A DNA stretch of 64,000 bases, from positions 620,001 to 684,000 of the forward strand of contig NZ_CP015103.1 of NCBI RefSeq assembly GCF_002214505.1, given 5' to 3'. Below the pieces are notes generated by a model. It worked only from the letters and a program-made list of their open reading frames with translations. It was not told the origin of the DNA and made no database searches. This DNA is from Thermococcus siculi. Its GTDB lineage: Archaea > Methanobacteriota_B > Thermococci > Thermococcales > Thermococcaceae. Positions 9,595 to 57,027 of the stretch are shown one piece after another (the first letter of the stretch is position 1; the number at the start of each line of letters is the position of its first letter). Position numbers and translations under genes: made by a program.

Positions 9595-13025
<3,431 letters not shown>

Positions 13026-13039
13026 TTTCCCCACCCAAG

Positions 13040-13084
13040 TATCACTACTGATGAGTAAACTTTGGCAAGTGAAACTTAAAAAGT
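13040..13084 (-). promoter_or_regulatory. GH13 promoter with partial glycolytic-motif operator
   Basis: In the 72-base divergent gap the minus strand carries a CTTTTTAAG box (about 13083-13075). About 25 bases downstream is a site with one perfect TATCAC half (13040-13045), a 5-base spacer and a weak second half. Overall 9 of 12 motif positions match. Placement overlaps the predicted transcription start, as at malE. Confidence 0.45.
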
Positions 13085-13097
13085 TGGAGGTCTCGGT

Positions 13098-14123: not shown

Positions 14124-14171
14124 GCTTTCTTTTCTTCCAATCCACGTTTAACTCCAAGGCGGGTGATCGAG

Positions 14172-18600: not shown

Positions 18601-18781
18601 GGCCTATTACTTTATGTCCCAGGTGTATCCTAACATAGACTTCTACAGCGGTCTCAACTACATGGTTGGCCTCTGGCAGGATACAGAAACCGGAGCGGAC
18701 ATCCCACTTCCGGGAGCCGGACAGGGCGACACAAGTGGCTTCAGTGCAGGCGACAGTATAACAATAGTGGCCCAGGGATGA
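15635..18781 (+). CDS. Secreted solute-binding-like protein (family 5 type) with surface-domain modules
   Basis: 1048 residues. Signal peptide 1-24; a module at about 70-170 that is also found in the protease at 30143-33031; a body from about 230 to 820 resembling oligopeptide-binding (SBP_bac_5) proteins, for example RFALNYLVNRSYIVNNILGG near residue 640; and a C-terminal domain (about 845-1048) shared with three other proteins here. No ABC permease or ATPase is nearby, so transport is not supported by context; a surface-displayed binding or structural role is equally possible. Many N-x-S/T sequons. GGTGGC precedes the ATG. Codon use is less G/C-rich than in neighbours. Confidence 0.75.
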   Translation: MKRGVGMILAVLMLGSLLWIPSYGASEGTLRSVHYGIASLGLAYYSSPEKLAPLMNLTNEELGELLSSGEYKLQNPVMVNYGNEWYKINQPQAIEGTTWVITVLDININENSALVVVSDSITGKQSDQTLLRRDVPVDIFGDGSIILTLKDTFVGIDGKLLALIEAHSKVSILRLVSKDQYWDLQKLGLTMGILDGVRIFLAEEWELYPVNKNRVSGIYALTRAGIDNRWSLMSASTPDGHLNVSFLTSDRLLWSPWNPLNSLDSNSYLVWSLVSDSGGYYGFDGFYHPYRCTWTVERGNFVVPNNAVIYNQTRGWISPNTGKNATVKITYHCDFGQWHNGISGGMDDLKNYIAFLYTWGYRDFDGDPYYDQLRDFWDVLPHTLGFQWLQDGYVVYGNYTHPIDDNVTAQYYLFYPQFPWELYWAIGELVANGQAYGVSNSYYFVDWKDGAQQLDLLNGTHCGDLEKVMSAIASGNAGASFPGINWGSAASRLNSDIAFYRAHGHFVISNGPYILAEYVPTKYIKLEKFTGSRTIFANYPHMPLTGNSNVIEFVPSGNFDSAVQEIARGNVDIGMFGFGWYRFESLGSDALQALELYPKTVGSFDLTVNPYHDPDKDAPIVTNASGVYFNPFAIREVRFALNYLVNRSYIVNNILGGVGTPMLGGISQTDPAYPYIPPVYRSLGLVPDGDIAYALALVERGMEKAQQEVVKYGHTLERRDDGFWYFDGQPVEVKFIIRIEDERHDIGLYVADLLEKRMGFRVKRLFWDRLKAGQVVFGKPPSNYEWNIYTGGWGTSGIEEIYPDGMISWWYSSSGYYPSAVGPNHESNITVEAALAFLGTQYGDMGTYPSAIQNASKVYFVFNNLGTPDSFSASQYISRTVPISVRTVSMLADEFNITSAGSSDVIVSVGGPLVNRITAKFDSMALVHMGIEPGRIRILTPNGEFIWNVPKPWWNVTEGYFVIQFFNDRTTGALVVTIYGTDADSTAAGAYYFMSQVYPNIDFYSGLNYMVGLWQDTETGADIPLPGAGQGDTSGFSAGDSITIVAQG

Positions 18782-33031: not shown

Positions 33032-33078
33032 ATAAATCACCTGCAAGGTTCTTGGAAGTAGAGACTTAAAAATCCTTC

Positions 33079-33118
33079 GGATATAAAACAAACTTTTTGT
33101 TTGAAAAGTCAAAAAAGA
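33079..33118 (-). promoter_or_regulatory. Terminator-like inverted repeat and protease promoter
   Basis: On the minus strand, just past the phosphoribosyltransferase stop, there is a T6 run, then CAAAC-AAAAA-GTTTG (33103-33089) followed by TTTTATATCC. This may terminate the upstream gene and supply the TATA element of the protease gene. Its predicted start is about 33058, giving a leader near 27 bases. Confidence 0.45.
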
Positions 33119-33122
33119 GACT

Positions 33123-33587
33123 TTACTCCCTAACCACAACCGGGAACTCCTCCCAGGGGAAAACTACCCACTTGTCGGTCCTAAATACGTAGAAGTCGGG
33201 AACGACCTTCGTCCACGGCTTCATGCTGAGGCAGGCAACCTTAACCTCGCTCGCCCCGGCCTTCTTGACTTCCTCAATGACGACCTCGAGGGTCTTTCCG
33301 GTGTCGCTGACGTCGTCCACTATAACGACTTTCTTGCCCTCGAACTCGCCGTAGAGGGGTATCGTTATTACGGGCTTCTCCATCCTCTCCTCGATGTCCT
33401 TGTAGAACTTAACGTCGATCACCTTGACCTCGATGTCGCCGAGGATGTGGCTGAGCCTCACCGCCGGTATGAGTCCGCCCCTCGCGACGCCGACTATCAC
33501 GTCTGGCGTGAAGTGCTTTCTCAGCTCATCAGCGAGCGCGAATATCGCCCTGTCAACCTGCCACCAGGTGAGATAAACCTTGTCCAT
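33123..33587 (-). CDS. Purine (xanthine/hypoxanthine-guanine-type) phosphoribosyltransferase
   Basis: 154 residues, type I phosphoribosyltransferase for purine salvage. The PRPP loop is VVIVDDVSDTGKTL near residue 86 and the pyrophosphate loop is ARGGLIPA near 35. The C-terminal KWVVFPWEE resembles archaeal and bacterial xanthine/guanine enzymes. Base specificity is not determined by these motifs. Confidence 0.88.
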   Translation of the reverse strand: MDKVYLTWWQVDRAIFALADELRKHFTPDVIVGVARGGLIPAVRLSHILGDIEVKVIDVKFYKDIEERMEKPVITIPLYGEFEGKKVVIVDDVSDTGKTLEVVIEEVKKAGASEVKVACLSMKPWTKVVPDFYVFRTDKWVVFPWEEFPVVVRE

Positions 33588-40902: not shown

Positions 40903-43275
40903 TTATTTCCTTCCACCAACGTCTTTTAGCCTGAACACACCCCTATCCAGAATTTCCCCCTTCATAATGTATGAGTATCTCACAACAGCACTCCCGTTCA
41001 GCTGGTCAGGAAGCACGAACTCTCCCACTCCGCTGACGTCGTAGTTCTTGAAGAACACCCGTGTCCCGTTGTCGAGGAAACCCTCAACCATCAGTCGGGT
41101 ACCCACGGGTTTGGTGAATCTCAGCACTATCTTATCCCCCTCGCGGATCACGGCCACGTTGGGGTGCTCAAACTTGAAAATCTTGATGTATCCCCCATCT
41201 GAATACACGAGGCTGTAATTTGGGGGATAGCTGTCGGTGAACATCAACCGTGCGAGAGTCGTTTCAAAGGATTTCCTGTTCATCAGCACCGCGTAGCCGT
41301 AGTTCAGGTTTATGTATACATATGCATCTGCCTTCTGGGTGCCGGTGATGTTGACCTCCCGGGGGCCGTTGGTTCCCTCCACGTAGGCCTCCACAGGGGA
41401 GAACGCGTTGTTACCTGCGCTTACGAGGATTTTCCACCCTTTCTTTCCTGGTTCCGCGGTTATGGAATAGCCGTTGACCGCAAAGACCAGAGTCTTCCCG
41501 CTGGTCTCTGTTAATGGCATCGGAATCATCGGATAATCCCCCACAGGGACGTTGGCCGTTTTCAGCACTGCCGGGAACTTTCTTACAGTATCATAGGAGA
41601 CAATAACGTAATCAATTCCTCTGGCCATCAGTTCCTTCTCATTCGTCATGTTCAGGTAGTATTTGGCCACGAACTCATCCGGGGCCCCATGTGAGGGGGT
41701 TCCTCTTTTGGAGTAATACATCGTCCAGTACCCCTGATCCCACCACGTCAAAATGATGGCGTTCTCGTTTGAGGCCTCTCTCAGGGTAGCGAGGGCGTTC
41801 TCCCATCCCTCGTTCATGAAAGGCCTCACGTTGATCGTGTTCTGAGTTGCCACCGCGGCCGTTGGGACAATCAGGAGCGCTATTATTGTGGTGGCGATCG
41901 TGGTGGAGAAGTACCTTTTTGAGAGCGTCCTCCCTTCTTTCACAGTATCGAGCAGTTCCCAAACCCCGACTCCCGCAAGGATTGCAACGGCCAGCGAACC
42001 GATGAAAAGAAACCTCGACCATACAAGGATCATAATCAGGCTGGGAACTGCGAATCCCAGGACGATGAAGTCGACCACCTTCACGCGGGAGGGCCTGAAT
42101 CTGAGGAGGAAGGGGGGAAGCACAAATATCAGCGTCCCATAGGATATCCAGACGTCGTGGAATGACGTCCTCCGTGTTTCTGCTATTGCCTCCTCTCCGA
42201 ACCTCTGGAGGAACAGCAGGAAGGCCCCCTTGATCAGGTGGTAGTACCGTATCCCCAGGAAGAGCACAAGGAGGACAAGTATCGATGTGACCACCAATTT
42301 TCCCCTGTAACTTTTAATAAACCTCGATGCTCCAAATAGGATTATTATCCCCAGAATTGCCGCGGGAACGGCGTACTCTAGGTAAACGAGCAGAAACGCA
42401 TCCTTTATGAACCCAAACTGGAGTCCGAGAGCCTTTGCTGCCTCAATTCCATCCGGCCTGTTCCATCCGAACATGCCGTAGCCCAGCCTCGACCCGATGG
42501 TGTTGGCCATCAGCGCCCCTAGAATCGTTGAGACCGTTAATGCGGTTGAGTCGAGGAATGCCCACTCTTTCCTGAGGAGAAACGCACCAATCGCAATGAA
42601 AACTGCGTTTGCAATCAGAAACACGAACATCAGGTAGTACGCGCTCCAGAATGCCGCAGCTGCCCCTGCCGCGAGTCCGGGAATAACGTAGAGGGCCAAC
42701 CGTTTATACTCCCACCCAGCTTTACCCCGGAATTCCACAGCCAGACCTAATCCAAGGAGCGCCAGAGAGTACCAGAACAGAAGGTAGTTGTCGCCCCTGT
42801 AGTAGTTCGTCATGGAGCGGAAGACGTGGCCGAAGCTGATTGCCATGAAGAGCGAGGAAAGCACGGCGACTTCGTCGTTGTAGAGGCTTTTGACTGCAAA
42901 GTACACCGCAATTATTGTTAAGATGCCAACAACGGCGGGGGTTATCTTGAAAGCGGTATCAATCGATACTCCAAAGGGCGAGAGGAGGGCGTGGAGGTAC
43001 GCGGGCGGCATCCAGAATCCCTTGGGGTGAAACTGGTCTATGAGCATTCCCCAGGGGGCGTTGGCGTAGGGGAAGAAATTCACCCACTCTCCCATCATGG
43101 TCGAATACTCCACGTAGGCCGCGTGAAAGTACGTGTCGTAGCCCAGGAGGTACCTGAAACGGAGGGGTATCAGGCGGAGTGCGAGGCCCACGAAAATCAG
43201 GATTGGGAGAAAGCATCCCGTTCTCATGATGCATCCCAGCTTCTTTAGGATTCTTCTGCCGGCACTGGATGACAT
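40903..43275 (-). CDS. aglB: Archaeal oligosaccharyltransferase AglB (STT3 family)
   Basis: 790 residues. About 13 membrane spans fill the first 470 residues. Acidic loop motifs GYDTYFHAAY (near 45) and YRGDNY (near 155) match the metal-binding DxD positions, and the hallmark WWDQGYW (near 510, a WWDxG motif) begins the outer catalytic/binding domain. It transfers lipid-linked glycan to Asn in N-x-S/T. The ATG at 43275 has GAGGGGT upstream, with an internal ATG 16 codons later as alternative. Divergent from the glycosyltransferase genes and close to the sequon-rich 1955-residue protein, its likely substrate. Confidence 0.93.
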   Translation of the reverse strand: MSSSAGRRILKKLGCIMRTGCFLPILIFVGLALRLIPLRFRYLLGYDTYFHAAYVEYSTMMGEWVNFFPYANAPWGMLIDQFHPKGFWMPPAYLHALLSPFGVSIDTAFKITPAVVGILTIIAVYFAVKSLYNDEVAVLSSLFMAISFGHVFRSMTNYYRGDNYLLFWYSLALLGLGLAVEFRGKAGWEYKRLALYVIPGLAAGAAAAFWSAYYLMFVFLIANAVFIAIGAFLLRKEWAFLDSTALTVSTILGALMANTIGSRLGYGMFGWNRPDGIEAAKALGLQFGFIKDAFLLVYLEYAVPAAILGIIILFGASRFIKSYRGKLVVTSILVLLVLFLGIRYYHLIKGAFLLFLQRFGEEAIAETRRTSFHDVWISYGTLIFVLPPFLLRFRPSRVKVVDFIVLGFAVPSLIMILVWSRFLFIGSLAVAILAGVGVWELLDTVKEGRTLSKRYFSTTIATTIIALLIVPTAAVATQNTINVRPFMNEGWENALATLREASNENAIILTWWDQGYWTMYYSKRGTPSHGAPDEFVAKYYLNMTNEKELMARGIDYVIVSYDTVRKFPAVLKTANVPVGDYPMIPMPLTETSGKTLVFAVNGYSITAEPGKKGWKILVSAGNNAFSPVEAYVEGTNGPREVNITGTQKADAYVYINLNYGYAVLMNRKSFETTLARLMFTDSYPPNYSLVYSDGGYIKIFKFEHPNVAVIREGDKIVLRFTKPVGTRLMVEGFLDNGTRVFFKNYDVSGVGEFVLPDQLNGSAVVRYSYIMKGEILDRGVFRLKDVGGRK

Positions 43276-43305
43276 GGGGACCCCTCGCTGGAATACCTTC
43301 GGCTG

Positions 43306-43368
43306 GAGTATTAAAAAGGGTTGTGTTTGGCGGTTTGCTCATCTTTCAATGGATAGGTTTAAATCGTC
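43306..43368. promoter_or_regulatory. Divergent promoters of aglB and the glycosyltransferase operon
   Basis: In the 121-base gap the minus strand has CTTTTTAATAC (about 43316-43306), about 35 bases before the aglB ATG. The plus strand has AGGTTTAAATC (about 43357-43367), about 35 bases before the ATG at 43397. Both imply short leaders. Confidence 0.55.
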
Positions 43369-43396
43369 CCTTACTAAACCGAGTTGGGAGTTCGTG

Positions 43397-44521
43397 ATGA
43401 GGATAGCCTTCATATACGATGCCCTGTATCCGGAGGTCAAGGGCGGTGTTGAGCGCAGGCTCTACGAACTTGGAAGACGTTTGGCCAGAAAACACGAGGT
43501 TCACTGGTACACGTTTGGCTGGTGGGGCGACTCGAAGACGCTTGAGCGGGAGGGCATGGTTCTTCACAACCTTGGGCATCCCCTTGAGCTGTACCGGGGG
43601 AACGTCAGAAACCCCCGGGAGGCCCTAGTTTTCTCCTGGAGGATTCTTCGGCACAAAGTGGGTCAATATGACGTCGTTGACTGTCAGGAGTTCCCGTACC
43701 TCCACGCCTACCCCTCCAAACTAAAGTTCTCTGGGTCGGAGACCTTTGTAATCACCTGGCACGAATACTGGGGCGATTACTGGGAGGAGTACCTGCCCAA
43801 TGGGTCCGGCCTTGGGAAGCTGGCTGAAAGCGGCCTTCTAAAACTGACCGACAATCACCTGGTCGTTTCCAGACACACTCTCGGGCGACTGGTGGAAGTT
43901 AGAAGGGGAAACTTTGGACTCGTGCCGAATGGCATTGATTTCGATTTCATTCGCTCCGTTGATCCTCATCCGGGGCTGGACTACGATTCGGTCTTTGTGG
44001 GGAGACTAATAGGACATAAGAACGTGGAGCTCCTCCTGAGGGCTTTGAGGCTCATCGTTAGGGACGTTCCTTCTTTCAGAATCGGGATAATCGGGGACGG
44101 TCCCCAGCGGGCCGAGCTTGAGACCCTCGCGCGGCGTCTGGGGGTTGGGGACAACGTGGAGTTCCTCGGTTTCCTCCCGCGCTTTGAGGATGTCATATCT
44201 GTGATTAAGTCCTCACGGGTTTTCGCTTTCCCTTCCCTCAGGGAGGGCTTTGGAATCGCCGTCATTGAAGCCAATGCCTCCGGCGTTCCCGCCGTTGTCG
44301 TGAATGCTCCTATGAACGCCTCCGTTGACCTTATAGTGGAGGGAAAGAACGGTTACATCAGCGATGGTTCACCAGAAGACTTCGCGGAGAAACTTTTATT
44401 AGCATGGGAGAACTCCTCGAGGATGAAGCGTCCTTCCCTCTCGATTGCGAAAAAATACGACTGGGATAACATCGCAGATAAGCTTGAGAGGTACTACAAA
44501 GGTGTTGCCGATGGATCCTGA
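43397..44521 (+). CDS. GT4-family glycosyltransferase
   Basis: 374-residue GT-B enzyme. N-terminal MRIAFIYDALYPEVKGGVERR contains the glycine loop of GT4; the C-terminal half has VFVGRLIGHKNVELLL and the ExxxxxxxE motif (REGFGIAVIEANASGVP). No membrane segment; it probably adds a sugar from a nucleotide donor to a lipid-linked glycan on the cytoplasmic face. First gene of a three-gene operon; overlaps the next by 11 bases. Confidence 0.85.
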   Translation: MRIAFIYDALYPEVKGGVERRLYELGRRLARKHEVHWYTFGWWGDSKTLEREGMVLHNLGHPLELYRGNVRNPREALVFSWRILRHKVGQYDVVDCQEFPYLHAYPSKLKFSGSETFVITWHEYWGDYWEEYLPNGSGLGKLAESGLLKLTDNHLVVSRHTLGRLVEVRRGNFGLVPNGIDFDFIRSVDPHPGLDYDSVFVGRLIGHKNVELLLRALRLIVRDVPSFRIGIIGDGPQRAELETLARRLGVGDNVEFLGFLPRFEDVISVIKSSRVFAFPSLREGFGIAVIEANASGVPAVVVNAPMNASVDLIVEGKNGYISDGSPEDFAEKLLLAWENSSRMKRPSLSIAKKYDWDNIADKLERYYKGVADGS

Positions 44522-45629
44522 AGTCACAGTCGTGCTGCCCACAATGAACGAGGAAGAGGCCATCTCGGTGATGCTCCCCCGTATCAAGGACGTTCTGGAG
44601 CGCATGGGGGTCTCGTACGAGATAGTGGTCGTCGACAAGAGCGACGATAGAACGCCCGAGATAGCGAGGAATCTGGGCGCCCGTGTGATACGGCAGGAGG
44701 GGAAAGGGTACGGCGATGCGTACCTGACGGGGTTCAAGCACGCCCGGGGAAAGTTCATCGTCATGATGGATCCAGATGGGAGCTACGATCCGGAGGACAT
44801 CCCAAAGCTCCTCCAGCCCCTGTTTGAGGGCCGCGCCGAGTTCGTCATGGGTACCCGGCTGAAGGGCGAGATGGACAAAGGAGCGATGCCCTGGCTTCAC
44901 AGGCGTATCGGAAATCCCCTTCTCACGTGGGTCCTCAACGTGCTCTTCAAAGCGGGCATAAGCGACGCCCACTGCGGTATGAGGGCCATAAGAAAGGACG
45001 CCCTCGAGAGGCTTCCCCTCAAATGCAAGGGCATGGAGTTCGCTAGCGAGATGGTGATTGAAGCTGCGAAGAAGGGGCTTAAGACCGTTGAGGTTCCCAT
45101 AAAGTATCACCCCAGAATAGGGGAGTCGAAGCTGAGTTCTTTCAAGGATGGCTGGAGGCACCTCCGCCTCATGCTCCTCTACTCACCGTCTTACCTGTTT
45201 CTCCTGCCCGCGGTCATCTTCGTGATTGCTGGAATCTGGTTCATGGGATACGCATACATCCTCAAACCCGAGAGGCTTCACACCCTCATACTGGGGAGTG
45301 CGTTGCTCCTCCTTGGGTTTCAGATACTGGGGTTTGGAATTTCGGCCAAGGTCTACGCCGTCAAGGAGGGCCTTGAGGAGCCTGGCAGGCTGACGAGGTT
45401 CTTCATGAGGTATTCCGTCCTGGAGGAGGGTCTGCTAGTAGGGGGGCTTATGTTCGTCGTGGGGCTTGCCCTGGGTCTGTACATCTTCCTGAAGTGGAGG
45501 GCGAGCGGTTACGGGGCGCTCTTCATGATACGGGAGGCCGTGCTGGTTCTGACCCTCACGACCCTCGGCCTTTCGGTCATCTTCTTCTCCTTCTTCGTCA
45601 GCATCTACATGCTCAAGGGTGAAGATTGA
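44511..45629 (+). CDS. GT2 dolichol-phosphate sugar synthase-like, with C-terminal membrane domain
   Basis: 372 residues. The GT2 domain begins VTVVLPTMNEEE, with DPDGSYD as the metal-binding DxD near residue 86. The second half has about four membrane spans from residue 220. This is the DPM1/GtrB-like arrangement that makes polyprenyl-phosphate mannose or glucose, the donor for GT-C enzymes such as those at 38576 and perhaps 54814. GGTG lies before the ATG at 44511. Overlaps both neighbours. Confidence 0.85.
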   Translation: MDPEVTVVLPTMNEEEAISVMLPRIKDVLERMGVSYEIVVVDKSDDRTPEIARNLGARVIRQEGKGYGDAYLTGFKHARGKFIVMMDPDGSYDPEDIPKLLQPLFEGRAEFVMGTRLKGEMDKGAMPWLHRRIGNPLLTWVLNVLFKAGISDAHCGMRAIRKDALERLPLKCKGMEFASEMVIEAAKKGLKTVEVPIKYHPRIGESKLSSFKDGWRHLRLMLLYSPSYLFLLPAVIFVIAGIWFMGYAYILKPERLHTLILGSALLLLGFQILGFGISAKVYAVKEGLEEPGRLTRFFMRYSVLEEGLLVGGLMFVVGLALGLYIFLKWRASGYGALFMIREAVLVLTLTTLGLSVIFFSFFVSIYMLKGED

Positions 45630-46690
45630 TGGGGAGGGTTCTCGTAGTTTCTCCCTATTTTTATCCCGAGGGAGGGGGGCTGGAGAGGTACGCCTTTTCG
45701 ATGGCCAAGAAGCTTTCGGAGGAACACGACGTTGAGGTTCTCTGCATGACCCGGGGCGAGGAGAGGGTGGATGAGATTGAAGGTATGAGGGTTTACAGGA
45801 TTAAACCTGCCCTAATAGTCTCCAACACCCCGCTCAGCATTAAGTTCGTTCTGAAGACCGCGAAGATGGTGAAGAACCGGGATCTCGTGATAGCCCACAC
45901 GCCGGTTCCCTTTGCAGCCGACGTGGCCGCTTTATTCGCAAAGCTCCGGGGTCTCCCGATTAGGATAGTCTACCACACCGTGGGCCTTGAGAAAGGGGCG
46001 GGTTTACTTGACCTCATAGCGAGGATCTACTCCGCCACTGTTGAGAGGCTGACCCTGAGGGGGGCAGAGATAACCGCTGTTTCTCACGTGGTCTGGGAGT
46101 ATCTGAAGGGGCGCGGCTACAACTCCGAGGTCTCTTATCCCCCCATGAACCTCGACATCGGTTTGAGCGAATCCACGTCACGTGGGAAAGTGATACTCTT
46201 CGTGGGCCAGCTTGGGAGGTATCACCGCTTCAAGAACGTTGGCATGCTCATCCGTGCCTTTGCGGGGGTAGCCCCCCTGTTCCCAGACTGGGAACTCTGG
46301 ATCGTTGGGGAGGGGGATATGAAGAAGGACTACGCTCATCTGACCTCCCGCCTCGGAGTCTCTGAGAGGGTTCGTTTCCTCGGCAGGGTTGATGATCCCA
46401 AAAGGCTAGCGGAGGTTTATTCCTCTGCGGGGATTCTCGTGCTTCCCTCTGCCTTTGAGTCCTTTGGTATGGTGATCCCTGAGGCCCTGAGGTTGGGGAC
46501 CCCCGTGGTGGTCTCCCCCAGTGTGGGTGCCAGAGTGCTGGTAAGCGATGGGAAGAACGGCCTCGTCCTCGGTGGACTCTCCCCAGAGGCCCTCGCAACT
46601 GCCCTCGAACTCCTGCTCGGAAATCAGAAGCTCCTGAGAAAGATGGGCCGAATTGCCGCCTCTTCGGCGGCATCATATGCGTCCCTTTAG
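45629..46690 (+). CDS. GT4-family glycosyltransferase, short C-terminus
   Basis: 353-residue GT-B enzyme with VVSPYFYPEGGGLERYAFSM at the start, LFVGQLGRYHRFKNV at the nucleotide-sugar domain and the ExxxxxxxE motif in AFESFGMVIPEALRLG. Its ATG overlaps the previous TGA by one base. The protein stops abruptly at AASSAASYASL, where GT4 enzymes normally continue with a helix returning to the N-domain, and it overlaps the convergent gene by 18 bases; the end may be truncated. Confidence 0.82.
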   Translation: MGRVLVVSPYFYPEGGGLERYAFSMAKKLSEEHDVEVLCMTRGEERVDEIEGMRVYRIKPALIVSNTPLSIKFVLKTAKMVKNRDLVIAHTPVPFAADVAALFAKLRGLPIRIVYHTVGLEKGAGLLDLIARIYSATVERLTLRGAEITAVSHVVWEYLKGRGYNSEVSYPPMNLDIGLSESTSRGKVILFVGQLGRYHRFKNVGMLIRAFAGVAPLFPDWELWIVGEGDMKKDYAHLTSRLGVSERVRFLGRVDDPKRLAEVYSSAGILVLPSAFESFGMVIPEALRLGTPVVVSPSVGARVLVSDGKNGLVLGGLSPEALATALELLLGNQKLLRKMGRIAASSAASYASL

Positions 46691-47653
46691 TTTCAGCCGG
46701 GATATGGCCTTTTTCAGGAGCAGTCCCTCGTCTTTCTTTGGCCGTAACCCTAACCTGCCCTCTATGCTCGCGATCTCCTTTGTTATCTCCTTCTTCGAGC
46801 GGAGTTTTTCCCTATCCTCGTCATCTATAACCCACCAGGGAACCTTGATCAGGTTGGCGTTTCGCCCTATGCCGTGGCCGTAGACCTTTATGGGGAGCAG
46901 GCGAGTTACCTGTTCGCCGAAGAGTTCGCCGTGATCTGCCGTGACCACGGTTCTCCCTCTGAGCCTGTGGAGCAGAAGCTCAACGTAGGGCATCACGGCT
47001 CGGAGGTTCTCCCTGTAGGCCCATATCAGCTTTCTTATGTGGAACTGGCCGTAGATGGGGGAGAGATACAGCTCGTTGAGCGGCTCGTTCTGGACGGTGT
47101 CCATTTTGAGCCTTCCCTCGCTGATGGAGTCCCTGATGACCCTCATCGTCCTGTCTCCGAATTTGAGAACGAAGTAGGGGTGGTGTGGCTGGAGAAAGTG
47201 GACGATCAGCTTTTTGCCTGGGTAGCTTTTCAGGGCTTTTACGGCTGCATCATAAACTGCCCTGGGGGGAACAGTCTGATATCTCTCGTCCCAGCCGGTT
47301 TTCCAGACTGATATTATCGCATGGAACTTTCCGCTTAGGTATTTGTCAACGAAGGGGTTTGACGTTATGAAAACCATGTCCTCGTATTTTTCCTCTGGAA
47401 AGTTCTTTATGAGGAACTCTCCCGTCCACGAGCCGAGGGAGAACTTCCACCCGAGTTTGCCGGGAAGGTTTCTCTCCCGAAACCCCGCCTCAAAAAAATC
47501 GAACCTGCAGTCATCCAGGATTATTAATTGATCCCATTCTTCTGAAAATATGCTCTCCCCAGGATTTCCGTGGAGGGTTTCTACGATTCCCTTTAGAGCG
47601 TATTCTTTGATCTTGTGTGTGATCTGGATGACCCGGGTCTTCTGCGACTCCAT
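46673..47653 (-). CDS. Alkaline-phosphatase-superfamily (sulfatase-like) protein
   Basis: 326 residues, cytoplasmic (no signal). LIILDDCRFDFFEAG near residue 44 is the metal/nucleophile position and VVTADHGELFGE with a later GHG (near 230-260) supplies the other metal ligands. The CxPSR formylglycine signature of true sulfatases is absent, so it may be a phosphatase, phosphodiesterase or phosphoglycerol-type transferase; such genes are common in archaeal surface-glycan clusters. A CTTTTTTAGG box near 47684-47693 could be its promoter. Confidence 0.7.
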   Translation of the reverse strand: MESQKTRVIQITHKIKEYALKGIVETLHGNPGESIFSEEWDQLIILDDCRFDFFEAGFRERNLPGKLGWKFSLGSWTGEFLIKNFPEEKYEDMVFITSNPFVDKYLSGKFHAIISVWKTGWDERYQTVPPRAVYDAAVKALKSYPGKKLIVHFLQPHHPYFVLKFGDRTMRVIRDSISEGRLKMDTVQNEPLNELYLSPIYGQFHIRKLIWAYRENLRAVMPYVELLLHRLRGRTVVTADHGELFGEQVTRLLPIKVYGHGIGRNANLIKVPWWVIDDEDREKLRSKKEITKEIASIEGRLGLRPKKDEGLLLKKAISRLKLKGRI

Positions 47654-48093: not shown

Positions 48094-51000
48094 ATGGATA
48101 GGCGCAGAAAAGCGCGCTTTTTGAGCCTGGTCCTGGCACTGTTTATGTTGTTGGCAGTGGTGCCAGGGTTCACACCAGGCGGAATGAATGCAGTGACTGC
48201 ACAGACGTATCCAACAACCATCAAGATCGTGGGGAATGCCACAAATTGTGGGGCCAAGCTGTTCCAAGGGTTCCCCTACGAGATAGTGATGAACATATCG
48301 TACTTGGATACTTCAGGCAATGTGACTGATATAAGTAGCAACGTTTATGCCCACTTGGATTACTACAACGCCAGCAGTGGATCTTGGATACATGTGTATG
48401 ATACTCCCGATCCTGGATTCTCGGTTCAGCATGGTAACGCCACAATTATCATCAACTCAACATTGAGCCCCGGATTTGTCAGCGATGAGTACAGGGAAAT
48501 CCCACAGGGAATTACAAAAATAAGAGTTACACTCCACGATCCGGTATACAATGTAACCAACAGCACGGAGTTTGATGTGCTCTTCCCGTACATCGTTACA
48601 ACGAACATAACAAGCTCAGTACCGTACTTGAATGGAACCTGGATGAACGACAGGGCCTTTAAGGAGATACCATTCAACCTAACGGTGAACGTTACCTACG
48701 ACTCCGATGCAGTGGCGTGCTTTGGGATCTCAATACCCTCAAACGTGACAGTGGATATAACGATGCCCAACGGTACAGTTCTCTCTGACTTAATGTCCCT
48801 AAGTGGAGGAACCGGTGAGAAAGTCTACACTTACCTCAAGTCCTCGATTCCGGGAACTGGTAACGTGGTGGTTACCGACACGGCCAATGGGCTTGTGGCT
48901 CCTCCGGAGTACTTCCAGGTCTATGACTGGACAATAAACTTTGTCGTCGTCGGCTTCAGCTTGGTAAATCCGCCATATTCGTGGATTCCGTTCAATATAA
49001 CCGGAACAATTAATGCGCTCACCACATTGGGCGGACTTGGACTGTACACACTGGGAGTCAATGACACTCTATCCCTTGAGATACTGGGTACAGGCTACAC
49101 TGGAACTGCAACCATGACAAACGGAACGGCACCATTCAACATGACCGACATAACCCTACCCGCTGGTACATACAACCTCCAGGCCAGCTTGGACAGCTAC
49201 ACCCCGACGACCATCTACGGCTTTAATGTTGCAGAATGGAACATAACCATAACCCCGACCATAAACTGCACCACATGTCCCTCATGCACCGAGTTCTACG
49301 CCGGCGTCAACCAGACCCTTAACATAACCATTGAGTATCCGGTTGAGCCATACAACATTACCTCCATCGCCAACTACAGCATACTCCTAAACGGTATTGA
49401 GGTTTACACCGGAACCATAAACGTCGTCAACAACACGGGCTCGGTGGTTCTCCCCGTTAACTTCCCGGAGAGCGGCACCGTTGAGATACGCGTCTGGGAT
49501 GAGACTTATCACCCCGACTACAACAGCACCACGATACCCGTGTCCGACTGGGACCTCATTGGAGGCTACATTGTTACCCAGTACCCTGGTACCTGGTACG
49601 AGACTTACGATAGTAACTTCTACGTGGGAATACCGGGAGCGCTTAACCTAACGGTTTTATACAACGAGCCCTGTCCGGTTAACTCCACGCTCAACATAAC
49701 AGTGGAACTTCCAAACGGAACGGTTCTCAACTACTACCCGGTTGCAGTCGTAGACAACAACTCGGTCAACTTCACAGTTCCGGAGGAGTTCCTGTTCAGC
49801 GAGCCTGGATATGTCCACGTGACCATAACGGACGAGAGCCTCAACAAGACCGTTACCCTTGATGTCCCGATCAAGGACTGGGGAATCTTCGTCGACGTCT
49901 CACCCGAGGAGCTCGTTGAGAACGAGAGCACCAACGTCAACGTGTTCGTTGTTGAGTCACTGTACTTTGACTGGCCTGGAACCAGGGATGTTAACGTCAC
50001 CTTGGAGCTTCCTGATGGGTACACGGTCACCAAGAACCTCACACTGGAGGCCAACGATGATGTGTACTACGGCCAGGGCGGCTACCAGGGAATAGTGACC
50101 TTCGAGAACGTAACTCCAACAATTCCTGGCCTTGGATGGGTCACAGTCACTGACGTCCTCAGTGGCAAGACTGTCAGGATGCCCGTTGAGGTTAAGGTCC
50201 CCACCGACTACGTTGGAACTGTGGTTGTTGCCACAGTAACCCCCGAGGACTCACCGGTCTACGCCTACATCCCGAACAAGCTGAACATAGACATCAAGTA
50301 CTACGTTAGGGACGCTCAGGGCGGCCTCACTGACGAAGAGCACGACCACGACGCTAGGGTAATAGTCTACGACGCGGACGACATGCACACCCCCATTTAC
50401 AACAGTACCGTCCACGTTCCAAACGGTCACTACATCATGCCTCCAGTGACGGTTCCTGTAAACGGCATCCAGAACATAGTCGTCGAGGTCATAGACCTGG
50501 CTAACAACAGTGTCAGGAGCACTGCTGAAATCCCTGTCTCCCAGTGGAACGTTACCTTTGACTTCGCCACTGACGGCCCTGTCTGGAAGTACGTTGACAA
50601 CACCCTCAACGTTACCGTCCACGTTAACGGCCCAGATAAGGCAGTCAACGTCAGCATCAACGGAGCGCCTGCTGGCACATACAACGACGGTGACGTTATA
50701 CAGGTTAACCTAGTCGATCCGCAGGGAACGCTTACCTTCAACGTCATCGCCACTTACAACGGTCACCAGGTTGGAAGTGACAGCTACACCATAACCCCGG
50801 AGGAGTGGAACGTTACCTTCGACTTTAGCGTTAAAGACCATGCGACTGGAATCCCGGAGCTCTACCAGTGGTTCGACGGTGACCTCATGGGAACGGTTCA
50901 CGTTAACGGTCCGAACGTTCCGGTCAACGTCACTCACGTTACCTGGGCGTGGATGATGGGCACTTACTACGATGGCCAGAACTTCGGATTCGGATGGAGT

Positions 51001-53961
51001 CCGGTGCTTGACCACGACACTTGGGACTTCGTCGCCACCTACAACGGCCACACCGTGGGAACCGCTACCCTCGAGTACTATGGAGAACCGTGGGAGACCG
51101 TTGTCTCAGCTCCGAGCGAGCTCTACTACCTGCCCGATGGCTACACCAACAAGAACGTCGAGATCGGCGTCGACCTTGAGGGCCTCCCGGAGATAATCAC
51201 CGAGGGCTACAACGTCACCATAGAGCTTAACGTCACGCTCCCGAACGGTACCGTCATGATCAAGACCGTTAACGGAACCAACAGCACGGTCTTCGACCTT
51301 GGAGACCTCACCTTCAACGAGAGCGGAACCATAACATACCTTGTTGCTATATACAAGTACGCTTGGGGTAGCTGGAGCATGATCGACAGCGAGAGCGGAA
51401 GCATCCCGATCAAGCTGGCACTCAACGCCAGCATACTTGGAACCTACTACGAGAACATCCCGGTGGACGTTAGCATAAGCGTCGACTCTATCTCTGCCAG
51501 CCCGAACCTTACAATAACGATCGAGGGAACCAACTACACGATCTCCTCCGACCACGATGGACCCCTGGTCATTCCGGACGTCGAACTTCCTGCCGGCAAC
51601 TACACGGTGACCATCCACGACAGCTCGCTTAACGCCACGATAATCAGAACCCTTGAGGTACGCGGATGGGACATCTACGTTACCGTCAACCCCGACGAGA
51701 TAACTGCCGGAAGCGTCTACAACGTTGACTTCACGATCGACCTGAAGGACTACTACGGACAGCCCGTTGCGGTTAACGACAAGCTCAACCTCCTCCTCGA
51801 GTTCAGCGACACCGGCATAATCCCGAGCGGGTTCTACAACCTCACCTACACCATAACTCCCAGCGACATGGGTCACCTGGAGCGCACTCTAAGCGTGTTC
51901 TCACCGGTCGCTGGAACGTTCCAGGTCATCGTCTCGGACAAGTACGGCAAGGTCAACGACACCGAGCAGATACTCGTGGACCAGCCCAACCCGAACGACC
52001 TCACCTACGTGTACGTCAACATCAGGAAGCAGGGTTCACTCAGCCCGCCCGACGAGCCGGTCAAGCTCTACTGGGGTCTTGAGCTTGGCGGAGTCAGGAA
52101 GTACTTCCCGGTCTTCAACGCGACCATCAGCGAGGACTACTCGGAGGCCATGTTCACGCTCTACCCGCGGACCCCGTTCAGCCTCTACGTCATAGCCGCT
52201 CCGCTCAACGTTACCGCCCCGATACTCACAGAGGGCCAGACCTGGGCCCACAAGGTCGTGGTCCAGAACGATACCATCACCACCTACACCAAGAACGTCA
52301 CGGTCACCCCGATGGACGGTGGCTGGGACATCTCGGTCAGCGTTTACAAGGCGACCCTCAACAACGTCACCGTGGACTACTACACCTACAAGCCGCCTAG
52401 CACTCCGGGTGTCATCGAGCTTGAGCCAGGTTCAGCCTCGGTGCAGGGTAACGCCATCTACACCGGCATTGACGTGGAGACCGAACACTCCGAGGACTAC
52501 ATCTTCGGTCCCTACGAGACCTCCAACTCGACCGAGATAACCATCGTGCCAAACGAGCTCACACTCGAGCTCCTCGACAGCACCACGCTCAAGCCCACCC
52601 AGGAGGGCGAGCACTTCACCTTCAAGGCCATGCTCAGCATAACCAATGCAGAGGAGCAGTTCGACGCCCAGTGGACTCCGTTTGAGGGCTGGCTGAGCAG
52701 CATACCGTTCCTCACCGACGACGAGAAGGAGGAGCTTGTCAGCGAGATACTCGACCAGATCGGCGACGTCTCTGCCGTCAACGGACCGGTAGCCAACGAG
52801 ACCCTCGACTTCCACATCGACAACACCGCAATAGCCTACCTCGATCCAACGAACGCCACCACCGATGCCGACGGAAGCGCCACCTTCATGGTGTACACGA
52901 AGGCCACCGGTGACATGACTCCTGAGGAGCTCATGAACCTCATGGGTGCCGTCAAGGCCTGGGCGACCTACGACAGCCTCATCAGCAACGACATCACCGT
53001 CAACTTCGGCGGTGCAGGCTCAATCTCCGGCGATATCACCGACGACAGCGGAATGCAGATTCCGGGTGCCACCGTCGTCGTCAAGATGTGGAACGGTACC
53101 GCATGGGTCAACGCCACCGACTTCGCCGGCAACGTGCTCATGGCCGTGTCAGCCGACGACGGACACTACTCAATAAGCAACGTCCCGGCTGCCGTGGAAG
53201 GCACCAACTACATGGTCGTCGCCACCAAGGGTAACCTCACCGGCTACGCCTATGTCACGGTCTATCCGTTCGCCACATCGACCGCCGACGTCAAGCTCCG
53301 CGGAGTCTCAGAGAACAGCGGGTTCGCGGTCTATCCTGAGAGGGTCGACAACGCCGAGACGGTCTACTTCGTCTTCAACAACCTCGGAACGCCCGACGCG
53401 TTCTCGGCCAGCCAGTACCTGAGCCGCACCATACCCGCGGACGTCAGGACGAAGAGCGTCCTCGCCAGCGAGTTCGACATGGACCAGGTTACAGCCAACG
53501 ACGTCGTCATCTCAGTCGGTGGACCGCTGGTCAACCCGGTCACCGCCGCCTACGAGGACATGGCGCCGGTTCACATGGCCGTCAACGGAAGCACCATAAC
53601 CATAGTCATGCCTGAGGGCAACCTCACATGGACCGCTCCGAAGCCGTGGTGGAACGTCACGGAGGGCTACTTCGTCATCCAGATGTTCGAAGACGACAGC
53701 GGCGCCCTCGTCGTGACCATCTACGGTACCGACGCCGACAGCACCGCCGCCGGAGCCTACTACTTCCTCACTGAGGTCTATCCGAACATCGACGACTACA
53801 ACGGCGTTAGCTACCTCGTCGGACAGTGGGTCGACACCGAGCCCGATGCGGACATACCGCTTCCAGGAGAAAGCCAGGGCGACACCAGCGGCTTCAGCGC
53901 GAACGACGAGATCTGCATAATCGCCCCGGCCGCTCTGGCGACCTGTGCGGTCCCGATCTGA
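48094..53961 (+). CDS. Giant sequon-rich surface (S-layer-like) glycoprotein
   Basis: 1955 residues, secreted: a basic N-terminus, hydrophobic stretch and Ala cleavage region by about residue 37. The body is a string of Ig-like beta repeats of about 100 residues joined by linkers with a conserved Trp (DWTINF, EWNITI, DWDLIG, DWGIFV, QWNVTF, EWNVTF, GWDIYV at residues 279, 382, 486, 596, 818, 905, 1192). A carboxypeptidase-regulatory-like domain follows near 1640-1740, then the C-terminal domain shared with three other proteins (about 1745-1955). Dozens of N-x-S/T sequons mark it as an AglB substrate. The first kilobase has more A/T-rich codons than the rest. It lacks the CGP-type tail and any terminal membrane segment. 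GGTGAAGAG precedes the ATG. Confidence 0.88.
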   Translation: MDRRRKARFLSLVLALFMLLAVVPGFTPGGMNAVTAQTYPTTIKIVGNATNCGAKLFQGFPYEIVMNISYLDTSGNVTDISSNVYAHLDYYNASSGSWIHVYDTPDPGFSVQHGNATIIINSTLSPGFVSDEYREIPQGITKIRVTLHDPVYNVTNSTEFDVLFPYIVTTNITSSVPYLNGTWMNDRAFKEIPFNLTVNVTYDSDAVACFGISIPSNVTVDITMPNGTVLSDLMSLSGGTGEKVYTYLKSSIPGTGNVVVTDTANGLVAPPEYFQVYDWTINFVVVGFSLVNPPYSWIPFNITGTINALTTLGGLGLYTLGVNDTLSLEILGTGYTGTATMTNGTAPFNMTDITLPAGTYNLQASLDSYTPTTIYGFNVAEWNITITPTINCTTCPSCTEFYAGVNQTLNITIEYPVEPYNITSIANYSILLNGIEVYTGTINVVNNTGSVVLPVNFPESGTVEIRVWDETYHPDYNSTTIPVSDWDLIGGYIVTQYPGTWYETYDSNFYVGIPGALNLTVLYNEPCPVNSTLNITVELPNGTVLNYYPVAVVDNNSVNFTVPEEFLFSEPGYVHVTITDESLNKTVTLDVPIKDWGIFVDVSPEELVENESTNVNVFVVESLYFDWPGTRDVNVTLELPDGYTVTKNLTLEANDDVYYGQGGYQGIVTFENVTPTIPGLGWVTVTDVLSGKTVRMPVEVKVPTDYVGTVVVATVTPEDSPVYAYIPNKLNIDIKYYVRDAQGGLTDEEHDHDARVIVYDADDMHTPIYNSTVHVPNGHYIMPPVTVPVNGIQNIVVEVIDLANNSVRSTAEIPVSQWNVTFDFATDGPVWKYVDNTLNVTVHVNGPDKAVNVSINGAPAGTYNDGDVIQVNLVDPQGTLTFNVIATYNGHQVGSDSYTITPEEWNVTFDFSVKDHATGIPELYQWFDGDLMGTVHVNGPNVPVNVTHVTWAWMMGTYYDGQNFGFGWSPVLDHDTWDFVATYNGHTVGTATLEYYGEPWETVVSAPSELYYLPDGYTNKNVEIGVDLEGLPEIITEGYNVTIELNVTLPNGTVMIKTVNGTNSTVFDLGDLTFNESGTITYLVAIYKYAWGSWSMIDSESGSIPIKLALNASILGTYYENIPVDVSISVDSISASPNLTITIEGTNYTISSDHDGPLVIPDVELPAGNYTVTIHDSSLNATIIRTLEVRGWDIYVTVNPDEITAGSVYNVDFTIDLKDYYGQPVAVNDKLNLLLEFSDTGIIPSGFYNLTYTITPSDMGHLERTLSVFSPVAGTFQVIVSDKYGKVNDTEQILVDQPNPNDLTYVYVNIRKQGSLSPPDEPVKLYWGLELGGVRKYFPVFNATISEDYSEAMFTLYPRTPFSLYVIAAPLNVTAPILTEGQTWAHKVVVQNDTITTYTKNVTVTPMDGGWDISVSVYKATLNNVTVDYYTYKPPSTPGVIELEPGSASVQGNAIYTGIDVETEHSEDYIFGPYETSNSTEITIVPNELTLELLDSTTLKPTQEGEHFTFKAMLSITNAEEQFDAQWTPFEGWLSSIPFLTDDEKEELVSEILDQIGDVSAVNGPVANETLDFHIDNTAIAYLDPTNATTDADGSATFMVYTKATGDMTPEELMNLMGAVKAWATYDSLISNDITVNFGGAGSISGDITDDSGMQIPGATVVVKMWNGTAWVNATDFAGNVLMAVSADDGHYSISNVPAAVEGTNYMVVATKGNLTGYAYVTVYPFATSTADVKLRGVSENSGFAVYPERVDNAETVYFVFNNLGTPDAFSASQYLSRTIPADVRTKSVLASEFDMDQVTANDVVISVGGPLVNPVTAAYEDMAPVHMAVNGSTITIVMPEGNLTWTAPKPWWNVTEGYFVIQMFEDDSGALVVTIYGTDADSTAAGAYYFLTEVYPNIDDYNGVSYLVGQWVDTEPDADIPLPGESQGDTSGFSANDEICIIAPAALATCAVPI

Positions 53962-54109: not shown

Positions 54110-54811
54110 ATGGTGAGGCGGGAAACGTACCTTCTGACCATAATTGTGATCCTGCTCCTGGGGACGGCGGTTGTCATAACCCACCGCTCCTCCGGAGGGT
54201 TCTCGGTGGTTTACTTCGATAACTCAACCCTTCCCGCTCACTTGAGTCCTGGAAACGTCAGTACAATCGTTTTTGTGATCGAATCCCACGAGAACGGTGA
54301 GGTCGGATACTCATTTGAAGTTTCCCTCGACGGGAGGATCATAAAGAACGGGAGTGTCTCCCTTAGCCCCGGGGAGAGTGTGCAGGTTCCCGTTGAGGTA
54401 TCGGTTACCAACGTGACCTACGAGAAGGTCCCTCTGTGGAATATGACCTCTGTCTACAACGTGAGCGGAGCGTTAAATATAACTGGCAACTGTGTTGCCG
54501 TTAATTCGAGCGGTCGTTCGTGGGTATGCCTTCCGGCCTCGTACAAGGGCCCCTCCGACCTCAATTTTCTGCTCAACACGAATGGAAACGTCAGCGTTGT
54601 AGAGTTCTCCACCAACAACTCGGCTACCGGGAAAGTGACCACAAGGTTTGAGCTTGACATACTCAAAATGGGGGAGGAGAGATATCTGGTCACGGTCAGG
54701 GAAACCCGGATCATGTACGCTCCCAAAAACGTCCTCCTCGAGGTTACCGTTGAGTCCTCCAGGGGGAAGGTCTACCACCTGACCAGGAGCTTTCCGGTGG
54801 TGGGTGGCTGA
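54110..54811 (+). CDS. Membrane-anchored beta-domain protein (DUF1616-like)
   Basis: 233 residues: one N-terminal membrane anchor (about 6-25) and an outside beta domain with many sequons. The stretch about 40-95 (LSPGNVSTIVFVIESHENGEVGYSFEVSL...SLSPGESVQVPVEV) resembles the extracellular part of archaeal DUF1616-type proteins. Two Cys (CVAV, VCLP) may form a disulfide. GGGGGGAT lies before the ATG and the next gene starts 2 bases after its stop, so the pair is an operon, probably acting together at the surface. Function unknown. Confidence 0.65.
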   Translation: MVRRETYLLTIIVILLLGTAVVITHRSSGGFSVVYFDNSTLPAHLSPGNVSTIVFVIESHENGEVGYSFEVSLDGRIIKNGSVSLSPGESVQVPVEVSVTNVTYEKVPLWNMTSVYNVSGALNITGNCVAVNSSGRSWVCLPASYKGPSDLNFLLNTNGNVSVVEFSTNNSATGKVTTRFELDILKMGEERYLVTVRETRIMYAPKNVLLEVTVESSRGKVYHLTRSFPVVGG

Positions 54812-54813: not shown

Positions 54814-57027
54814 ATGGAATGGATCGGTGTAATCCTCCCCTTTCTTGCGATCCTTGCGGCGGTTTACATTGTGTCCAGCGGTGAGGCCGGGCGCAAAATA
54901 TCCCTGCTCGTTCTCTCTGTTCTTTCCGCGGGTGTTGTCCTCTACGTGAGACTGAGTTTCGGGAGGTACTTCACGACCATCGATGAGTCCTACTACGTCT
55001 CCCTTCTTGGCGATCCCCGGTGGTATCGAACCTCAATAGTGTCCGGCTACGTTACCCCGTTTCTCCTTCATGTATTTAGGTCACTGTTTGCCACTCCTGT
55101 CGATGAGGTCGTGTGGTATTCGGCGATAGCTGCCGTGGTCTACATCCTGTTAATATTCTGGGTCTATAAGGCCGTTGGACTCTCTTCCAGACACTCGCTG
55201 ATTTCCCTGCTGATCCTTCTGATGACCCCCCTCTACATCTGGTCCGTCATCCAGGTTAGGCCCCAGCAGGCCGGTTTGCTCGTTGGTCTTCTTATAATTG
55301 CCCTGTTTGTACGTTTAAAGCCGGGAAAGGCCCTTTTCTTTGGTGGAAGTGCCCTCTACGTTCTCCTTGTCTTTTCCCATGTCCTGTCATTCATAGTCTA
55401 CTCCCTTCTCCTCGTCTCCTACCTCTCCGTTCTGGTACTCTTCGGGGAGGAGATGGCGTACCGTAAAAAATACCTCGTTCTTGCGGGTTCAGTAATCCTG
55501 TCATGGATCGTTTTCCTGCTTTTCCCCTACTCGCGGCCCATACTCAAGAACATGACGTGGCTTTTCAACAATCTTTTCCACGTGGGCCTGTCTGTGAAAG
55601 CCTTCTCAGCACTCTCGGCCGGAATGCTGGTGATACTCCTGCTCGGGTGGTATCTGATCCTCATCCATATCCCGGGACGTCTCACGGGAACCCTGTCCGC
55701 AATAGTGGGGTCTATGGAGAAAGTTGAGGATGCCTACCGCAGGGTGGATCATAAATTGTTCGCGCTGTTGGCCCTTATGCTGGTATTTGGCGTTCTCTAC
55801 GTCCAGTTCATGCTCGGGGCTCAGGTTTACGCCCGTGTCTATCAGGGTTCTCCTCTGGCCCTGCTCCTCTTTCAGATGGGAAACCTGGTCTTTGCCCTCC
55901 TGTACCTGAGGGGTGTTTTCCTGAGCACCATCAGAGGGCGCTTCGGTGACCTGGAACTTCTCTCCCTCCTGATGATCCCGATAGCCGGTGCCTTTCTCCT
56001 CGTATCTTTCTTCATGCCCCGCGGAAACGGCATCTGGGGTTTCCACAACTGGCTCATCAGGGCCCTGCAGTACTTCGTGCCTCTAGCTGCACCTCTCGTT
56101 GGGCGGCAGATAATGGAAGACGTAGATTCAGCCAATATTGAATGGGAGAGGGTCCTCGTTTCTGTTTTCCTGGCCTTAATAATCATGATCAGTGTCCTCA
56201 ACACGGCGAGAATCCCGGGGGTGTACGATTACGATGCCGTTTGGAGCCACGAGCTGGTAGAACTCTGCGGAGACTTTGGGGGGATATACGTCCCCCGGGG
56301 TGAGTCCTCACTATATTCCAGCTTCGTCGAGAACAACCTCCTCAAGGCCTGCGGAAACGGCCTCTCACTGGACGAACGGGGCCCTCTGGTGGTTTCATCT
56401 GATGGCTTCTACATCAGTCCCACCCGGTACTCCACCTTAACCATAGGGGAGTTCGGAGGGCTTGCCTCGGATTACGCCGGCCGGCTTGTGGTAATGTCCG
56501 GGGGTGATGCCTTCAGAAGCTCCTACGTGGTGTCCCTGTTACCCGGTTCCGTCTTCCTCCCTCTGGATCCTGACGATTGCCCCCTTGGGAAGCCCTGGCT
56601 GAGTCGTCCCGTGTTGCTGATTGGTGGCCCGGTTTCGAACCCCTGCACCCGCGAGCTGGAGAAGGTGGGTGCCCTGAAGGTTGGCCTGGGGAACAATTAC
56701 GTTACCACGCTCCACTCCGCGTATTCAATCCCTGCTCCGGAGAAGTGGTGGGACGTTAGGGAGGGCCTTTTTGTGATTCATTCCCTACGTTACAAAGGCG
56801 TGCCCATCTTACTGGTGGAGGGCACCAACCTCGATGCCACCCTGGCCGGGGTTTACTACCTCATGAACGCCGTCTACCCCAGGATGGGGTACTACGGCAG
56901 CGTTCACTACATCGTTGGTAAGTGGGAGGAGACGGACGGAATGGTGATCGATGCCGCAAAGGGCGTCCCCACGGATACTAACGGCTTCAGTCCAGGTGAC
57001 AGGATAACCGTGTTAGAGACCGGATAG
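54814..57027 (+). CDS. Polytopic GT-C-like membrane protein with C-terminal surface domain
   Basis: 737 residues. About 13 membrane spans fill the first 470 residues. The first outer loop has TIDESYYVSLLGDPRWY, an acidic pair placed as in PMT/ArnT GT-C glycosyltransferases. The outside C-terminal part (about 595-737) carries IGGPVSN, KWWDVREGLFVI, EGTNLDATLAGVYYLMN and DTNGFSPGD, a divergent copy of the domain ending the 1955-residue surface protein. It is translationally linked to the preceding gene. A surface-layer-specific glycosyltransferase or a membrane docking partner are both plausible. Confidence 0.72.
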   Translation: MEWIGVILPFLAILAAVYIVSSGEAGRKISLLVLSVLSAGVVLYVRLSFGRYFTTIDESYYVSLLGDPRWYRTSIVSGYVTPFLLHVFRSLFATPVDEVVWYSAIAAVVYILLIFWVYKAVGLSSRHSLISLLILLMTPLYIWSVIQVRPQQAGLLVGLLIIALFVRLKPGKALFFGGSALYVLLVFSHVLSFIVYSLLLVSYLSVLVLFGEEMAYRKKYLVLAGSVILSWIVFLLFPYSRPILKNMTWLFNNLFHVGLSVKAFSALSAGMLVILLLGWYLILIHIPGRLTGTLSAIVGSMEKVEDAYRRVDHKLFALLALMLVFGVLYVQFMLGAQVYARVYQGSPLALLLFQMGNLVFALLYLRGVFLSTIRGRFGDLELLSLLMIPIAGAFLLVSFFMPRGNGIWGFHNWLIRALQYFVPLAAPLVGRQIMEDVDSANIEWERVLVSVFLALIIMISVLNTARIPGVYDYDAVWSHELVELCGDFGGIYVPRGESSLYSSFVENNLLKACGNGLSLDERGPLVVSSDGFYISPTRYSTLTIGEFGGLASDYAGRLVVMSGGDAFRSSYVVSLLPGSVFLPLDPDDCPLGKPWLSRPVLLIGGPVSNPCTRELEKVGALKVGLGNNYVTTLHSAYSIPAPEKWWDVREGLFVIHSLRYKGVPILLVEGTNLDATLAGVYYLMNAVYPRMGYYGSVHYIVGKWEETDGMVIDAAKGVPTDTNGFSPGDRITVLETG

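Follow-up and report, generated by a model that had tools for sequence, protein, structure and literature searches.

A stretch of 64,000 nucleotides from Thermococcus siculi (contig NZ_CP015103.1, positions 620,001 to 684,000; referred to here as the window) raises the question of why four unrelated proteins should share one and the same C-terminal domain (CTD) of about 205 residues. These are a secreted giant rich in Ig domains, a peptide-binding-type protein, a papain-like protease and a polytopic protein resembling glycosyltransferases of the GT-C type. In archaea, surface proteins are generally believed to be anchored for the most part through membrane tails at the C-terminus or through lipids, and bacteria additionally employ portable S-layer modules (SLH, CWB2) for this purpose. 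With a probability of roughly 60%, we regard the CTD as a portable, non-covalent surface-retention domain that is derived from, or shares ancestry with, the archaeal S-layer anchor domain.

One C-terminal domain on many unrelated hosts

Searching the complete genome (2.03 Mb) with the copy at 53323-53961 returned four CTD places, all within the window and none elsewhere, and they fall exactly on the four proteins for which a common end of roughly 200 residues had originally been predicted. Besides the query itself (E = 3e-142), these are the peptide-binding-type protein (E = 2e-88, 64% identity), the protease (E = 1e-81, 67%) and the polytopic protein (E = 2e-22, 32% over 150 residues). On the forward strand, the CTD occupies positions 53317-53961 in the giant (residues 1742-1945, followed by about 10 extra residues), 18164-18781 in the peptide-binding-type protein and, in diverged form, 56374-57027, where it makes up the extracytoplasmic C-terminus of the polytopic protein; the protease copy lies on the reverse strand at 30143-30784. 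After refinement, the domain itself spans 53317-53928, 18164-18778, 30146-30784 (protease) and 56374-57024. All three soluble proteins match the predicted positions and motif order. From the polytopic copy, VYFVFNNLGTPD, the earliest of the landmarks, is missing, and the remaining ones are diverged (GGPVSN, EKWWDVREGLFVIH, EGTNLDATLAGVYYL, TDTNGFS).

Across 19 CTDs of secreted hosts (cargo CTDs), 31 positions are invariant, including GG, N, W-x-x-P-x-x-WW and GY as well as the motifs YGTD-x-DST-x-A, GxW and D-x-x-GFS-x-x-D. In most of the complete cargo CTDs (23 of 25), the WWN motif doubles as a sequon for N-glycosylation (WWNx[ST]), which it rarely does in the CTDs of GT-C-like proteins (2/19). 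For the CTD of the 1955-residue giant, AlphaFold2 gave a confident model (pLDDT 87, pTM 0.87). The domain closes the protein, with 0-11 residues beyond it, in 45 of 50 distinct hosts; the original wording "always" has to be relaxed for a family of about 840 residues, in which the CTD-like domain is followed by a tail of 27-32 residues that contained a cysteine in the two examples read. A membrane tail, in turn, is lacking as predicted, since the hydrophobic segments of secreted hosts essentially correspond to the signal peptide (two giants have mis-called or cut-off start codons).

A family search, carried out first on relatives, which are close, and then on 115 genomes of the phylum, located the CTD in 24 of the 115, all of them from the family of the window genome, the Thermococcaceae, and distributed over four genera. 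At least nine unrelated N-terminal architectures carry it, which rules out that it is part of one ordinary enzyme family. Hosts of the SBP_bac_5 type occur in the window genome and four others (G032, G013, G001 and G012), papain-like C1 hosts with PEGA domains in the window genome and G045 (broken in G050, cut off in G123), and NosD-type beta-helix hosts in G018, with PKD domains, and in G032, without them. Found in single genomes are hosts with clostripain C11 and Big_7 (G017), VWA and PEGA (G126), CARDB (G123) or Big_13 (G060); Ig-rich giants of about 1900-2900 residues, the family of about 840 residues and the polytopic GT-C-like protein complete the set. In G050, an otherwise complete genome, remnants of the CTD protease, of a second CTD protein and of a GT-C CTD were observed (L052, L053, L226), which suggests a joint decay of the whole CTD system. 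A 2107-residue open frame with the CTD at its end was also seen on a 6628-bp contig labelled Desulfurococcales (L104, JAMOOZ010000288.1). It reflects either a transfer beyond the Thermococcaceae or a mis-binning of this 6.6 kb metagenome contig and was not taken as evidence for a wider distribution.

If the CTD retains proteins on the surface, homologues lacking it should own another anchor. The peptide-binding-type protein of the window (SBP_bac_5; 15635..18781, forward strand, 1048 residues) carries the CTD where a membrane tail would be, and each of the five CTD-bearing proteins of this type has a single hydrophobic segment, the signal peptide. Its four closest full-length homologues without CTD (49-52% identity) end in a Thr-rich linker, a C-terminal transmembrane (TM) segment and a basic tail, and the same TM tail is present on more distant paralogues. 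Three of these four pass the NCBIfam cut-off for CGP-CTERM, which has so far been reported from Thermococcales alone (PMC4870337). The papain-like protease (C1; open reading frame at 30143..33139, reverse strand, 998 residues) combines an S-layer central domain, PEGA and the CTD; its true start probably lies inside the listed frame, which opens with a TTG at 33139, and its signal peptide was located near residues 37-66. Here, too, the four closest homologues without CTD possess a C-terminal TM segment followed by RRK or RRR. The CTD and a C-terminal membrane tail thus replace each other in two unrelated host families. CGP-CTERM (TIGR04288) and the other C-terminal membrane anchors of Thermococcales are found at the position of the CTD in homologous hosts, where they presumably do the same job. 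Their nature differs, as these tails are hydrophobic and lie in the membrane, while the CTD is a soluble folded domain.

The same comparison bears on the idea that the CTD serves maturation or secretion, as a foldase-like module or as a propeptide that is cleaved off, and does not contribute to retention. Its C-terminal placement on several enzymes would suit such a module. However, the domain is well folded in the model and conserved up to its last residues, it is also found on non-enzymes and a membrane protein, and it stands at the membrane-tail position of homologues; this explanation is therefore highly improbable.

As a side observation, starch/glycogen genes flank the CTD-bearing binding protein on both sides (window positions 11079-15524 and 26143-27882), comprising a GH13 amylase, a TrmB-type regulator, a glycogen-synthase-like glycosyltransferase and a PSMA-like amylase.

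Probable relation to the archaeal S-layer anchor domain

A likely, though not proven, homologue of the CTD is the anchor domain of archaeal S-layer proteins, S_layer_C (PF05124). In hmmscan, the copies of the window scored 20.9, 19, 17.7 and 12 bits against this family, the curated cut-off of which is 23.9 bits; one copy reached 24.3 bits, above the cut-off, in the genome scan, and the CTD of family member L066 clearly exceeds it at 29.2 bits. Eight places in the genome match PF05124, two of them in its S-layer protein, P0005, followed by the CTD copies and two further proteins. The motifs of the family are present in order, i.e. the conserved GGPxxN and then G-x-[DT]...T-x-x-A. Anchor and CTD share the GGPxxN strand-loop-helix, a second strand leading through G-x-D/T-...-T-x-A-A into a helix, an extracellular location and a distant profile similarity. 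In P0005, however, the S_layer_C domain is split between both ends of the protein, with about 400 residues in between, and this split arrangement was not found in the CTD, which is one contiguous C-terminal module. The CTD additionally has an extra WWN hairpin, a conserved DTSGFS end and many unrelated hosts.

Comparison of a profile of 19 CTDs with one of eight S-layer proteins placed the CTD onto the C-terminal lobe of the S-layer protein (E = 1.6e-4, probability 51%) in the expected register, with GGPLVN against GGPVAN and GTDADST against GATRNET. The single sequence match of the CTD in the PDB was 9FSA (E = 0.23, not significant alone), a sequence that matches P0005 at 2e-18. This entry is an S-layer domain of Methanococcus voltae crystallised from residues 24-75 and 484-576; the domain has been described as responsible for anchor dimerisation, and similar anchors are predicted for P. 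abyssi, T. camini and T. thioreducens (PMC11410804). When the confident CTD model was submitted to Foldseek, the best match was BcsB of cellulose synthase, at a TM-score of only 0.45, and GH67 alpha-glucuronidase was also among the best.

Two of the four hosts in the window, moreover, contain a copy of the central domain of P0005. In the peptide-binding-type protein it lies near the N-terminus (15881..16144, forward strand; residues 83-168, 61% identity, E = 2e-34), and in the protease at 31166..31453 on the reverse strand (residues 564-656, 69% identity, E = 9e-42). The proteases of G045 and G050 have it as well, while the other SBP_bac_5 hosts are without it. An origin of these cargo domains by copying from P0005 is unsupported, because proteins of other species match equally well or better. 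Within the genus, close CTDs accompany S-layer proteins of 73-92% identity and diverged CTDs those of about 40%, and the identity of isoleucyl-tRNA synthetase fails to separate the two sets (86-93% and 91-92%). A rule that the CTD type tracks the type of S-layer protein is nevertheless broken by G126 and G113 and, hence, was not used as evidence for pairing.

Independent of the CTD, two more secreted proteins of the genome were seen to end in a weakly S_layer_C-like domain (GGP/GGW...N, AGxxRxET). One is a 654-residue protein beside a BtuCD-like transporter (L015:2695-4659; genome 33694-35658), the other a 492-residue, S-layer-like protein (L014:2900-4378; genome 830899-832377). The genome may thus possess several independent tails of this kind.

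A cassette in the AglB N-glycosylation locus

The giant and the polytopic protein belong to a gene cassette within a glycosylation locus, at the head of which lies an AglB-type oligosaccharyltransferase with a WWDQG motif (40903..43275, reverse strand). Upstream of the cassette stand three glycosyltransferases (GT4, GT2 and GT4; 43226..46690, forward strand), and the GT2/GT4 order is retained in related loci. The cassette itself, entirely on the forward strand, consists of the secreted Ig-rich giant (48094..53961, 1955 residues) with signal peptide, beta-rich body, CarboxypepD_reg domain and CTD, a 233-residue protein with one N-terminal TM segment and an extracytoplasmic domain weakly like DUF1616 (54110..54811), and the 737-residue GT-C-like protein (54814..57027). 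The giant contains 71 N-x-S/T sequons, compared with 23 expected from shuffles.

This arrangement recurs. The GT-C part of the polytopic protein was found in 20 genomes, every one of them CTD-positive. In 19 genomes, 20 loci were examined, and in each of them a same-strand gene for a secreted CTD protein precedes the GT-C gene. In eight loci of the diverged type, the two genes adjoin each other with a gap of -11 to 62 bp, and in the other 12 a homologue of the 233-residue protein immediately precedes the GT-C gene. Wherever the flank sufficed (17/17 loci), the cassette stands beside glycosyltransferases of the AglB locus, with AglB itself in reach in nine. Enzymes of the GT-C type carry a catalytic acid in the first outer loop, and the motif T-x-x-DE[SA]YY in this loop is retained in all 19 full-length GT-C-like proteins. 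A Pfam scan of the polytopic protein gave no match to a GT-C family, and its membrane part was modelled unreliably (pLDDT 54), too poorly for a structure search.

Two further observations concern the gene content of the cassette and its surroundings. In L051, L055, L062, L229 and L230, the secreted protein of about 840 residues, which is weakly similar to DUF2808, replaces the giant. Between the glycosyltransferases and the giant lies the gene of a 326-residue protein (46673-47653, reverse strand), conserved in L044, L046 and L231, the start of which (LIILDDCRFDFF) recalls alkaline-phosphatase/sulfatase-like enzymes; no Pfam match below 0.01 was obtained for it.

The CTDs of GT-C-like proteins are a branch separate from the cargo CTDs, grouped on one side of a maximum-likelihood tree with a support of 93/86, which is not firm. 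On the cargo side, the CTDs of unlinked hosts (SBP_bac_5, C1, C11 and one NosD) fall into one shallow clade (97/91) nested in a larger group together with the giants of the cassette. The root of this tree is not fixed and several of its branches are long; its topology is consistent with a spread of the CTD from the cassette to unlinked genes.

Such a gene order might alternatively mean that the CTD is a recruitment tag, in which CTD-CTD pairing brings secreted proteins to the GT-C enzyme for glycosylation and retention is secondary. The invariable upstream gene for a secreted CTD protein, directly adjoining in eight loci, the retained catalytic-type DE motif and the richness of the giant in sequons would all fit this idea. 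Against it, G018 and G013 own CTD hosts without a GT-C gene, cargo and GT-C CTDs form distinct branches, and a modification tag would leave the replacement of membrane anchors by the CTD unexplained. Overall, we judge it unlikely.

The neighbourhood of glycosyltransferases also invites a second alternative, namely that the CTD is a glycan-binding anchor holding its hosts via a surface polysaccharide, an N-glycan or a lipid-linked glycan of the surrounding locus; on the GT-C enzyme, it would then bind the growing glycan. Besides the constant position of the cassette in the 17 loci, this is in line with the conserved aromatic motif PWWN..GYF and with the top structural matches, BcsB and GH67 alpha-glucuronidase, both of which act on polysaccharides. 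By analogy, SLH domains bind cell-wall polymers, and CWB2 of C. difficile anchors SlpA and the CWP proteins and recognises the polymer PSII (PMC8881574 and a reference therein). The match to BcsB is nevertheless a lead only, too weak for a claim, no glycan is known, and the sequence profile links lead to S-layer proteins and none of them to carbohydrate-binding families. We consider a glycan ligand fairly improbable.

Proposed surface retention and its counterparts in bacteria

Under the favoured reading, surface retention by an S-layer-type domain, a secreted protein ending in the CTD would be exported by its signal peptide, fold outside and be held on the cell by pairing of the CTD with an envelope partner. 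The likeliest partner would be the anchor domain of the S-layer protein, presumably similar in fold; it is ranked first because it is near-universal in the genus, belongs to the same superfamily and dimerises in M. voltae; the CTD on the GT-C membrane protein comes second, and an envelope glycan may serve as well. The cassette of the AglB locus would have come first, combining a secreted CTD protein rich in Ig domains, in many cases a small TM protein, and a GT-C protein that bears a CTD itself. The domain might then have passed to enzymes at unlinked loci and to a binding protein, taking the place of their C-terminal membrane anchor. A more far-reaching version, which we consider doubtful, is a two-part display system of Thermococcaceae located in the N-glycosylation locus, in which the GT-C protein would pair with its cargo via the CTD, glycosylate it and hand it over to the S-layer anchor, so that the acquisition of a single C-terminal domain would suffice to bring any secreted protein to the surface.

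Several points weigh against retention at the S-layer. The CTD must be dispensable, because only 24 of the 115 genomes possess it. A second papain subfamily (1,110-1,305 residues) has neither CTD nor TM tail, so the substitution rule is not universal, and the cargo without a GT-C gene in G018 and G013 means that the GT-C CTD is not an obligatory partner. The CTD of G126 is 75% identical and its S-layer protein only 46%, so that pairing cannot be strictly species-specific. The profile link to the S-layer protein has a probability of only 51%, and 9FSA was absent from the 50 best Foldseek matches of the CTD model. Observed are the sharing of the domain, its C-terminal position, the variety of its hosts, its substitution for membrane tails, the S-layer domains in two hosts, and the cassette with its locus. 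Physical retention on the cell, assembly into the surface layer itself, the choice of partner, the direction of the spread and a glycosylation of the neighbouring protein by the GT-C enzyme are steps that we infer. Of the docking or assembly domain of the original prediction, it is accordingly the docking part that gains support, from the similarity to PF05124, the substitution for membrane anchors in two host families and the S-layer central domains in two of four hosts. The membrane-tail substitution, these central domains, the cassette in the N-glycosylation locus and the separate branch of GT-C CTDs are findings that go beyond that prediction.

The closest counterparts are bacterial. SLH domains of Gram-positive bacteria are likewise portable terminal modules for the non-covalent surface placement of enzymes and S-layer proteins, but they are unrelated in sequence and their ligand is a pyruvylated cell-wall polymer. 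To our knowledge, no such polymer is known in Thermococcales. In the S-layer of C. difficile, 28 accessory cell wall proteins (CWPs) share CWB2 modules with SlpA (PMC8881574); this resembles what is proposed for the CTD, in that one module of the main S-layer protein recurs on accessory proteins with varied effector domains and keeps them at the surface, and a sugar polymer linked to the S-layer also acts as a partner in C. difficile. CWB2, by contrast, is an unrelated domain that occurs as three repeats and has a bacterial cell-wall polymer as ligand. Two traits of anchors of the SLH and CWB2 kind are seen in the CTD: it occurs on many unrelated secreted hosts and it replaces other anchors in homologous hosts. 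Within Thermococcales, VARTIG modules (arCOG07710) are similar in that a large Ig-domain surface protein heads an operon of membrane proteins. The C-terminus of VARTIG proteins reads DNNxxxGG, in many cases preceded by a hydrophobic stretch (PMC8416519); this motif is absent from the CTD proteins, which rules out their membership.

Surface modules that are portable and also occur in S-layer proteins are thus known from bacteria (SLH, CWP); for Thermococcales, the open-access literature yielded none, nor any description of the CTD. Since T. kodakarensis is transformable, a genetic test of the CTD is within reach. If the favoured reading is true, the CTD would be a portable S-layer-type surface module for Thermococcales, explaining how the S-layer carries enzymes and offering a ready tag for protein display on a hyperthermophile. 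It would also provide a first functional handle on the GT-C enzyme, which has no name yet, and on the genes next to it in the AglB locus.

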